Of a DNA stretch of 64,000 nt, positions 52,325-64,000 are shown piece by piece. Source of the DNA: Pseudomonas sp. SCA2728.1_7 (GTDB lineage Bacteria; Pseudomonadota; Gammaproteobacteria; Pseudomonadales; Pseudomonadaceae). The translations under genes were made by a program, and so were the position numbers. Numbering within the stretch: position 1 is the first letter of the stretch; every line of letters begins with the position of its first letter. The notes below the pieces were generated by a model. That model made no database searches. It saw only the letters and a program-made list of their open reading frames with translations, and was not told the origin of the DNA. The stretch spans positions 1,054,001 to 1,118,000 of the forward strand of contig NZ_CP073104.1 of NCBI RefSeq assembly GCF_018138145.1. Reading direction: 5' to 3'.

Positions 52325-52623
52325 CCCTCACCCCCCGCCCTCTCCCAGAGGGAGAGGGAGCCTGACCGTATCGATGTAAATGTATGCGTCATACGCAAAA
52401 TCCGCATCGATACAGATCAGTCCCCTCTCCCAGAGAGATAGACCCTGACTGTATCGATGCACATGTTGTGATCAGCCGCCAAAAGCTGCATCGATAGAGA
52501 TCGGTCCCCTCTCCCAGACAGATAGAGCCTGACTGTATCGATGCACATGTTGTGATCAGCCGCCAAAAGCTGCATCGATAGAGATCGGTCCCCTCTCCCT
52601 CCGGGAGAGGGTTAGGGTGAGGG
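52325..52623. repeat. Inverted-end element with three 84-bp tandem units
   Basis: The ends CCCTCACCCC...CCCTCTCCC-AGAGGGAGAGGG (from 52325) and their near-complement (to 52623) match the ends of the element at 63718-63865. Inside, an 84-bp unit occurs at 52425-52508 and 52509-52592 with 2 differences, and a diverged 85-bp copy precedes at 52340-52424. Each unit holds the inverted repeat TATCGATGCA...TGCATCGATA. It fills most of the gap between the IclR gene and ridA. Confidence 0.85.
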
Positions 52624-61814: not shown

Positions 61815-61899
61815 CGCTCACTCCTTGTGATTGGGCTGGGGGGCAGCATAGAGCAGGGATGCGGGTTTTGGTTGTTCGGCTCAAGACCGGGTCGATGCA

Positions 61900-61964
61900 A
61901 TCGCGAGCAGGCTCACTCCTACAGGGGAACGCATTCCAAATGTAGGAGTGAGCCTGCTCGCGAT
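61900..61964. repeat. Inverted REP pair
   Basis: ATCGCGAGCAGGCTCACTCC-TACA and its complement to 61964, with a spacer that is the complement of the TTTGGAATGCGTTCCCC spacer at 50147. Confidence 0.88.
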
Positions 61965-61989
61965 GAGGCCCGACCAGACACAGAAGGTA

Positions 61990-62660
61990 TCAGAGAGAAT
62001 TCAGCTCATCGATATGTCGATACTCTGCACTCAACGCTGAAGCCAGATCCCGCGCCCGCCCCAACCGGATCGGTCCTCGCTCGATATCGATCAACAAGCC
62101 CGGGCATTCCAGCGCCGGCAATCCTGACCACTGTTTCAAACGCCCATCGGTCACCACCAGCAAACGTTGCTGTTCAGCGGGAAAGCGCTTGCGCCGCACT
62201 GCCAGCCATTGCTCCGCCTGCATCAGTGCCGCCATTAACGGCGTGCCGCCGCCAGCTCCCAAGGCTTCCAGCCAGACGCGCAAGCCGCTCGACGCCTTCA
62301 ACCCTTGCACCTGCCATCGCGGCGCCGAACCACTGGCGGTCAGCAATGCCAGCCGCGCACGCTGGCGATAGGCATCATCGAACAGTTGCGCGAGCAGGCC
62401 TTTGGCATCGCTCAAGGCGTGATGACGCCGCGTCGAGCCTGAGGCATCGACGATGACCAGCCACAGTTCATGCGGCGAGCGTGTGCGCAGTTGGAACAGC
62501 AGATCTTCACGTACTCGAGGACGTCCGTTGAGCAGCGTGCCCGGCCAGTTCACTGTACCGCCACGAGCGGCATGACGCTTGCCTTGGCGTCCACTGTCCA
62601 GCCGTCCAGCGCGGGGTCTGGCATTCGCCCCCGCTTCGGATCGGGGGCGAATGCCTAAGG
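61990..62660 (-). CDS. chlD: VWA domain of cobaltochelatase ChlD, read by -1 frameshift from the ChlI-like gene
   Basis: The open frame encodes a von Willebrand A domain with the MIDAS motif VIVDASGSTRRH, then GGTPLMAAL (MIDAS Thr) and LLVVTDGR. A GTG at 62553 could start a 187-residue protein, but the frame is coding-like and open before it back to the frameshift site (KALGIRPRSEAGANARPRAG, then GRLDSGRQGKRHAARGGTVN), with no start codon except CTG and no RBS. This upstream Arg/Gly-rich linker is the usual ChlI-ChlD connector. A -1 shift at 62661-62667 would fuse it to the ATPase, giving a product of about 555 residues. Separate translation from GTG remains possible. Confidence 0.8.
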
Positions 62661-62667
62661 CTTTTTT
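62620..62667 (-). promoter_or_regulatory. Programmed -1 ribosomal frameshift site
   Basis: On the minus strand the ATPase frame reads CCA AAA AAG CCT TAG, so the slippery heptamer A AAA AAG (62667-62661) is in exact phase, two codons before the stop. After a 5-nt spacer comes a 14-bp perfect stem GGCATTCGCCCCCG/CGGGGGCGAATGCC with an 8-nt loop (62655-62620). A -1 slip enters the VWA frame. This is the layout of the E. coli dnaX signal, and chlD frameshifting has been described. Confidence 0.85.
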
Positions 62668-63656
62668 GGCCAGCTCGGCACTTCACGACGGGCGCCTGTG
62701 GCAAGCCCGGGCGCCGGCAGGTCGCCCCACTGGCCCTGCCCTTCACTCGGCGAGGCTTGAGTTTCGGCCGGCGACTGCGCCGGTTGTTGCGGACTCGATG
62801 GTGGATGCTCACAGCGACGATGGCGCAGGGCAAACTCGGCCACGGCGTCGATGTCTTCTTCGCTAATCTCCTCAGCTCCGCGCCATGCCGCGTGGGCCCG
62901 AGCGGCGCGCAACCAGACCAGGTCGGCACGCAGACCATCGACCCCGGCGGCGAAACAACGTTCGGTGATCTGCGCCAGTGCGGCGTCGTCCAGCGCAATA
63001 TTGGCCAAGGCTTCGCGGGCGTTTTCGCAACGTTCGCGCAACGCTTGTTGCTGTGTTTCCCACTGTGCGCAGAACGCTTGCGGATCGCTGTCGAAATCCA
63101 GACGTCTACGGATGATCTGACCGCGTTCGGTCGGTGCGGTGTGGCCACTGAGGGCGACATTCAAGCCGAAGCGGTCGAGCAGTTGCGGGCGTAATTCGCC
63201 CTCTTCCGGGTTCATGGTGCCGATCAGCACGAACTTCGCCGAATGCCGATGGGAGATACCGTCACGCTCGATCAGGTTGGTACCGCTGGCGGCAACGTCG
63301 AGCAGCAGATCCACCAGGTGATCAGGCAGCAGATTGACTTCATCGACGTAGAGCACACCGCCGTCAGCCTTGGCCAGCACGCCCGGTGAGAATTGCGCGC
63401 GGCCCTCGCTGAGCGCGGCGTCGAGGTCGAGGGTGCCGACCAGACGTTCTTCGGTGGCGCCCAGCGGCAAGGTGACGAACTGGCCACTGGCGAGCAGATC
63501 GGCCAGGCCACGGGCCAGAGTCGATTTGGCCATGCCACGCGGCCCTTCGATCAGCACGCCGCCGATTTTCGGGTCGATGGCGGTGAGGCACAGGGCGAGT
63601 TTCAGGTCATCGGCACCGACCACGGCGGAGAGCGGGAAATGCGGGGTGTCGGTCAT
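62655..63656 (-). CDS. chlI: ChlI-like AAA+ ATPase of cobaltochelatase (zero-frame product)
   Basis: A 333-residue magnesium/cobalt-chelatase ATPase: GPRGMAKSTLARGLADLLAS (Walker A), GVLYVDEVNLLPDHLVDLLL (Walker B), LIGTMNPEEGELRPQLLDRF (sensor 1 and chelatase signature). Residues about 190-290 are the helical lid, and a Pro/Gln-rich tail (PSSPQQPAQSPAETQASPSE) follows. It supplies ATP-driven insertion of cobalt into hydrogenobyrinate diamide with CobN. Its 3' end carries the frameshift signal that joins it to the VWA frame. RBS at the ATG is weak. Confidence 0.92.
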   Translation of the reverse strand: MTDTPHFPLSAVVGADDLKLALCLTAIDPKIGGVLIEGPRGMAKSTLARGLADLLASGQFVTLPLGATEERLVGTLDLDAALSEGRAQFSPGVLAKADGGVLYVDEVNLLPDHLVDLLLDVAASGTNLIERDGISHRHSAKFVLIGTMNPEEGELRPQLLDRFGLNVALSGHTAPTERGQIIRRRLDFDSDPQAFCAQWETQQQALRERCENAREALANIALDDAALAQITERCFAAGVDGLRADLVWLRAARAHAAWRGAEEISEEDIDAVAEFALRHRRCEHPPSSPQQPAQSPAETQASPSEGQGQWGDLPAPGLATGARREVPSWPKKP

Positions 63657-63717: not shown

Positions 63718-63865
63718 CCCTCACCCTAGCCCTCTCCCGGAGGGAGAGGGAACTGACCGAGGTGTTCTGGCGAGTTACGCCGACTTGGCATATCGAGTTG
63801 AACTTAAGTTTTGAACGCCCCATAGATCGGCCCCCTCTCCCTCCGGGAGAGGGCTGGGGTGAGGG
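63718..63865. repeat. 148-bp element with 33-bp inverted ends
   Basis: The left end (63718-63750) and right end (63833-63865) are complementary except one base. Each end itself contains CCCTCTCCC facing GGGAGAGGG. The interior (CTGACCG... AGATCGG) resembles the element at 52325-52623. This is a MITE-like or REP-derived element between cobN and the chelatase genes. Confidence 0.85.
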
Positions 63866-63879
63866 TAGCTTTTGAGCGG

Positions 63880-64000
63880 CTACATATCTTCCTCAATATC
63901 CAGCAGCAGATTCTCCAGCGCCTCTTTATAAGCCCCCGGCTCCTGCCACATCCCCCGCTGCTGCGCTTCCAGCATCCGCTCGGTCATATCCCGCAGCGCG
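63880..64000 (-). CDS. cobN: Cobaltochelatase large subunit CobN, C-terminal end
   Basis: The gene runs off the right edge; only the last 40 codons are visible, ending MTERMLEAQQRGMWQEPGAY and an acidic tail EEDM. This matches the C-terminus of CobN, the subunit that binds the corrin ring and cobalt. It lies in the same direction as chlI/chlD, 223 bp upstream of them with the 148-bp element between. The identity rests on a short piece plus context. Confidence 0.75.
   Translation of the reverse strand, partial: ALRDMTERMLEAQQRGMWQEPGAYKEALENLLLDIEEDM

Follow-up and report, generated by a model that had tools for sequence, protein, structure and literature searches.

The literature on the fs-chlD, or 'magnesium chelatase', frameshift cluster includes the work of Antonov et al. 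2020, which lies behind PMC9227772. For the genus Pseudomonas, one report describes this gene with purifying selection on its slip site A_AAA_AAR and shows a stem from P. protegens that is nearly identical to the one described below; in the same report, the sequence of the stem is said not to be strongly conserved, and the formation of triplexes is suggested (PMC5009743). Another report places Pseudomonas in a cluster of 23 genes from six genera. Three cassettes were measured there in E. coli, and frameshifting was 63% with 11 As, 40% with 9, and 10% with 7, the efficiency rising with the number of As (PMC3711429). P. aeruginosa has also been listed at the stage at which a frameshifted chlD yields both subunits (PMC9227772).

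The signal examined in the present study is known in kind and in genus and is not new, because it was published for Pseudomonas along with the near-identical stem of P. protegens (PMC5009743, PMC3711429, and PMC9227772). The sequence-only reading from which we started had attributed reports of chlD frameshifting to other bacteria; the mechanism is indeed known, but from Pseudomonas itself and not from other bacteria alone. A literature search for PA2942 found no paper. The present study confirms the signal with 161 distinct loci and adds evidence from covariation and synonymous constraint to the published case.

The cassette and its setting

The window, i.e., the whole stretch of 64 kb that was analyzed, is part of a 6.78-Mb genome in a single contig, and the chelatase gene lies on its minus strand. 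The zero-frame product, which was recognized from the list of open reading frames (ORFs) and from profile matches, is a ChlI-type AAA+ ATPase of 333 aa (62655..63656, minus strand), the 3' end of which reads ...TGG CCA AAA AAG CCT TAG, with the stop codon TAG at 62657-62655. The heptamer A AAA AAG that had been proposed in the phase of the ATPase near its stop was found at 62667-62661, directly before CCT and TAG, and is followed by the 5-nt spacer CCTTA (62660-62656) and a predicted stimulatory hairpin (62655-62620), the arms of which (62655-62642 and 62633-62620) form 14 perfect pairs around an 8-nt loop, as had also been described. The first base of the stem is the last base of the ATPase stop codon. 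The positions of all parts of the cassette were confirmed on the minus strand, exact to the base.

Upstream of the heptamer, the -1 frame has a TGA whose end is 15 nt away, and from there the frame is open down to the stop at 61990, which agrees with the earlier proposal of a slip into an open VWA frame and with its lengths of 555 and 333 residues. The fusion would consist of the first 330 residues of the ATPase and the -1 frame part, a linker and VWA domain at 61990..62667 (minus strand) that was assigned from its frame, its length, and matches to the C-part of TIGR02442 and to PF13519; after the slip, it would read ...PKKALGIRPRSEAGANAR... and continue to the stop at 61990. The first ATG, GTG, or TTG of the VWA frame is a GTG (62551..62553, minus strand), the codon that had been named as its first plausible start.

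The predicted fold of the hairpin has an energy of -34.8 kcal/mol against -17.65 +/- 2.82 for 200 shuffled sequences (z -6.08), none of which was as low, and perfect hairpins with a stem of at least 11 pairs and a loop of 3-10 nt occur at five places in the whole window. When a covariance model of the cassette was searched against the whole genome, with 150 of 5136 first-look candidates scored, the window site reached 81.4 bits (E 1.6e-17), the same hairpin on the opposite strand came next with 31.6 bits, and unrelated sites among the scored candidates reached at most 22 bits.

The ATPase matched TIGR02442 (putative cobaltochelatase, E 1.6e-124) and TIGR02030 (ChlI, E 2.3e-103), and the GTG-started VWA piece matched the C-part of TIGR02442 (E 3.4e-22); the VWA ORF also matched PF13519. 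The NCBIfam scores fall short of the curated cut-offs, which is to be expected of half-proteins. Directly upstream of the chelatase gene lies cobN (TIGR02257, 1733 bits, genome position 1117892-1121728), the 3' end of which is at 63881..64000 on the minus strand and which runs beyond the end of the window. Profile searches of this genome gave no match to CobT or CobS, and a search with TIGR02442 gave other ATPase-part hits of at most 38 bits and one other VWA-part hit of 54 bits.

Repeats are also present around the gene. The palindrome CCCTCTCCC-N3-GGGAGAGGG occurs in four copies in the window, with 0.04 expected by chance; two of these (63730-63750 and 63833-63853) are between the end of cobN and the start of the chelatase gene, and the others are at 52338-52358 and 52591-52611. 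Just downstream of the VWA stop, at about 61898-61965, is an inverted repeat (ATCGCGAGCAGGCTCACTCCTACA and its complement) of a kind that we take to be the REP elements of Pseudomonas.

We consider, with a probability of approximately 0.93, that the cassette is the signal for programmed -1 ribosomal frameshifting in an fs-chlD (cobaltochelatase I/D) gene. Ribosomes that do not slip would read CCA AAA AAG CCT and terminate at TAG, leaving the 333-aa ATPase; some of the ribosomes may be stalled by the 14-bp hairpin with two tRNA-Lys(UUU) on AAA AAG, and a back-slip by one base to AAA AAA would carry them into the VWA frame and yield the 555-aa ATPase-VWA fusion. A genome search in which 150 of 186 candidates were scored gave 68 tRNA places, and the stretches scanned with ARAGORN, which include all of these, contain two tRNA-Lys genes, both UUU; in E. 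coli dnaX, a sole tRNA-Lys likewise reads both codons, according to PMC5009743. The two products are probably the small (I) and medium (D) subunits, partners of CobN in aerobic cobalt insertion. What the analysis shows directly is the sequence, its conservation, selection on RNA structure, and the gene neighborhood; that ribosomes slip in this species, how often they do so, and what the two products do are inferred. The proposal that one gene could yield both the small ATPase and a fused I-D subunit gains support from the conservation of homologues. The observations that speak for this frameshift reading are the heptamer in phase with the VWA domain in -1, the frozen NCA-AAA-AAG, the ubiquity of the hairpin, its covariation, its folding beyond that of codon shuffles, the openness and codon periodicity of the -1 frame, the tRNA-Lys(UUU), the neighboring cobN, the lack of CobT and CobS matches in the genome, and the published frameshifting of cassettes from this gene cluster in E. 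coli. Against it stand the loci that do not stand out in the codon-shuffle test, the lack of a Shine-Dalgarno-like stimulator, and the GTG or TTG codons at which a weak internal start might lie.

Conservation of the slip site, frame, and hairpin

The named relatives of the chelatase gene are mostly from Pseudomonas. In a genus sample, the ATPase was found at E <= 1e-80 in 113 of 119 genomes, including that of the window, and all 113 loci were taken; one was cut by a contig end, leaving 112 assessable loci, 109 of which have the VWA domain in the -1 frame and AAAAAAG in phase. The remaining three (L135, L199, and L200) lack the heptamer and have further frame breaks inside the gene, and in two of their genomes (G052 and G034) cobN is also broken, whereas it is whole in the third (G080, 86% complete); these loci look like decayed genes or sequencing faults. 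The case that had been named as refuting the cassette, an ATG-started VWA gene without heptamer or stem, was thus not encountered among the assessable genus loci, the three heptamer-less ones having other frame breaks. A second relative set of 80 loci comprised 67 with the VWA domain in the -1 frame (AAAAAAG in 62 and AAAAAAA in 5), eight in-frame fusions, and five that could not be judged, so that the heptamer in phase and the VWA domain in -1 were present at 67 of 75 assessable loci. Over all 194 loci, with the window included as a repeat of L008, 177 were of the -1 type, 11 were in frame 0, and six had no VWA domain. The 177 loci correspond to 168 distinct sequences, and the 161 with at least 70% identity to the ATPase of the window were used in the tests below; this set was selected by the VWA domain in -1, and each member also has the heptamer. 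Walker A and B motifs are kept in all 161. Two of these loci (L143 and L150) do not have the usual stop and terminate 18 nt later, and three loci (L017, L038, and L039) carry a natural spacer variant in which ATG and then TAG come directly after the heptamer.

Among the six genus genomes without an ATPase hit, a CobN match was absent in four and reached at most 227 bits in two (cut-off 822); a CobT-like match under the cut-off was present in three of the six, and of these three, two were searched for CobS, both giving matches of approximately 490-500 bits. Two genomes (G041 and G060) have CobS-like and CobT-like matches and no frameshift gene, with CobN absent in the former and partial in the latter.

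On a tree of the 161 loci, the third bases of NCA-AAA-AAG did not change at all, and the first base of NCA changed six times; in comparison, third-base changes numbered 26-38 at four conserved Lys columns, and their median over 110 conserved fourfold columns was 36 (range 2-64). In the chelatase gene, AAG is commoner than AAA among lysine codons (468 vs. 244), and CCA accounts for 12% of the proline codons. The spacer has 5 nt at 104 loci and 6 nt at 57. Past the slip, the -1 frame is open for 204 nt in 161 of 161 loci, whereas the frames offset by 1 and 2 hit a stop in 161 and 140 loci, respectively. The homologue check that had been proposed at the outset came out in favor of the cassette: heptamer, spacer of 5-6 nt, and hairpin are kept while neighboring third positions vary.

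An A run of this kind could also act at the level of transcription, with slippage of the polymerase changing the number of As in the mRNA and ordinary translation then giving the fusion. The run does exist, relatives outside the genus have longer ones, and the rise in efficiency with the number of As (PMC3711429) would be in keeping with such a mechanism. However, there are six As here against slippage runs of 9 (PMC5009743) or more than 7 (PMC3711429) in these reports, the sequence A6G is kept in 161 of 161 loci, and the pairing of the hairpin is under selection. We regard transcriptional slippage as highly improbable.

In another reading, the VWA protein is encoded by a separate gene and initiates alone, by reinitiation or coupling at a GTG or TTG or at a CTG immediately upstream of the slip site. 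Two genes are annotated in database records; at L252 (4953-5646 of NZ_CP010421.1), an Azotobacter plasmid locus with the same cassette, the VWA start is placed at a CTG two codons before the heptamer. A search for plasmid copies gave no near match, and of its distant matches, this one was used as a relative. A weak internal start is compatible with the sequence because some GTG or TTG precedes the MIDAS motif in all 161 loci, that of the window being the GTG at 62553. On the other hand, an ATG is missing from the stretch that separates heptamer and MIDAS in 139 of 161 loci (in three loci, the MIDAS pattern matched at an unusual position), and a Shine-Dalgarno sequence plus start is no commoner in the VWA frame (11 of 161) than in a control frame (12 of 161). 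The -1 frame ahead of the GTG, moreover, shows codon periodicity, with on average 15.2, 14.8, and 40.5 changes at codon positions 1, 2, and 3 (146 loci in register), and a start model leaves the frozen heptamer and hairpin unexplained. Two independent genes are, therefore, very unlikely in our view. Since annotated records can split a recoding signal into two genes, proteome searches may miss a 555-aa medium subunit.

Downstream of the heptamer, at a distance of 5-6 nt, each of the 161 loci has a hairpin of 9-16 pairs. The cassette had been called unusually complete; with heptamer and hairpin present at every one of these distinct loci, it is rather the norm. Two-sided changes occurred at 10 of the 14 pairs (144 distinct cassettes, ungapped in most rows), and the cells with such changes numbered 66 against 28.2 +/- 4.2 in shuffles, none of 500 being as high, and against 17-43 when the partner was slid. 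On the tree, we counted 9.4 double pair-preserving changes and 0-4.5 in slid versions, the count being made over 148 of the 161 loci with a predicted hairpin spanning 34 or 36 nt, a choice that favors pairing. Codon shuffles that keep the protein gave a mean z of -2.53 for the 161 loci and -0.21 for 483 control segments; 104 of the loci, but not the other 57, reached z < -2, and the value of the window itself was -3.85. None of seven more distant loci reached z < -2 in the 45-nt stretch used.

This fixed arrangement bears on a further possibility, namely that the hairpin represents a terminator, a small RNA, or a mobile palindrome and that its place at the gene junction is due to chance. Other palindromic repeats are nearby, and a match to the Pseudomonas sRNA P17 in Rfam overlaps the hairpin below threshold (17.5 bits; gathering 45), whereas the hairpin is single copy in the genome at a useful score, is absent from the terminator scan on either strand, and lies at a fixed distance from the heptamer at all 161 loci. 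The probability that we would give to such a coincidence is close to negligible. Readings of the cassette as a terminator or promoter were unsupported in the scans.

Two elaborations of the RNA structure were considered and rejected. A pseudoknot between the hairpin loop and downstream sequence was not apparent at the 103 loci with a 36-nt hairpin, at which the mean best complement was 4.48 against 4.44 +/- 0.07 with loops swapped among species (31 of 100 as high). As for triplexes, the longest pyrimidine run of the 5' arm was at least 5 at 110 of the 161 loci and at most 4 at 51, and for the purine run of the 3' arm the corresponding counts were 112 and 49, the arms being cut at fixed positions so that loci with shorter hairpins were measured out of register. 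A triplex is hardly a general requirement because the long purine or pyrimidine runs are missing in about one third of the loci. Compared with the view of stem and triplex in PMC5009743, it is the pairing that stays at these loci. Collectively, this evolutionary evidence supports a working -1 frameshift.

In-frame fusions in relatives

When the order was sampled, hits at E <= 1e-60 were obtained from 36 of the 155 genomes. All 31 hits outside the family were taken and comprised 21 in-frame fusions, eight loci with the VWA domain in -1 and an A-rich heptamer, and two with no VWA domain beside the ATPase; at these two, I and D appear to be separate genes, and approximately 1.2 kb separates the ATPase from the following VWA match. 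Regarding the eight fused genomes of the second relative set, the seven that were tested each have one such ATPase at E <= 1e-20, and CobN is present in all seven (in two pieces in G122). A strong CobS match of approximately 530 bits (below the cut-off of 558.55) was found in two, leaving five without a recognizable separate small subunit; among the fused genomes, the searches for CobN and CobS covered these seven.

The two-subunit rationale does not cover all relatives, because there are fusions with CobN but no recognizable small subunit, unless a remote one exists. The in-frame fusions weaken this rationale and not slippage itself. It is possible, and in our opinion rather doubtful, that the need for both free I and I-D, the usual rationale of the frameshift, is not general and that the fusion alone may suffice, with the frameshift tuning amount or assembly instead of supplying an obligatory second subunit. 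With these relatives, the requirement for the short product can be put to the test.

The fusion and frameshift states were clustered, with at least two changes, on a tree built from 58 selected rows, the deep forks of which are weak; one origin is possible, and the tree is compatible with either direction of change. In a test for reversed, dnaX-like signals inside the fusions, in-phase A6 heptamers in 29 fused loci occurred at 7 of 3530 linker codons and 12 of 13424 codons elsewhere (Fisher p 0.09), an enrichment short of significance. At codon 332 of one fused gene (L271, genome G271), an A-rich run is followed by a -1 stop three codons on and by a 10-bp hairpin just after, which is perhaps a reversed, dnaX-like signal giving a short product, in a single case.

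Comparison with known systems

The locus resembles the aerobic cobaltochelatase CobN-CobS-CobT in the adjoining CobN and in ATPase and VWA parts of the kind of the small and medium subunits. It differs in that these parts are ChlI/ChlD-type and come from one gene, whereas cobS and cobT are separate.

The cassette had been named dnaX-type. Slip site and spacing justify this, as it shares with E. coli dnaX the site A AAA AAG, a sole tRNA-Lys(UUU), and a downstream hairpin, which begins about 5 nt after the heptamer; the name does not hold for the rest. E. coli dnaX has an upstream Shine-Dalgarno stimulator and its slip leads to the shorter product, whereas no such stimulator was seen in the cassette and slipping into the -1 frame gives the longer product. 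The best match to AGGAGG within 25 nt upstream was 4/6 at 119 loci and 3/6 at 42 loci. In the reading frame of dnaX from this genome itself, no heptamer of the type X XXY YYZ (Y = A or T) stands in phase.

The features of the fs-chlD cluster that can be read from sequence were found at the locus: a VWA domain that follows a ChlI-type ATPase in the -1 frame, an A-rich heptamer that lies in phase where the ATPase ends and is kept by selection, RNA structure downstream, and CobN without a separate small-subunit gene, no other ATPase hit exceeding 38 bits. The window is another genome, and its A6G differs from the 11, 9, and 7 As of the cassettes with measured efficiencies in PMC3711429. Gene, genus, A_AAA_AAR site, -1 direction, and a stem near-identical to that of P. 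protegens are common to the published cases and to this locus.
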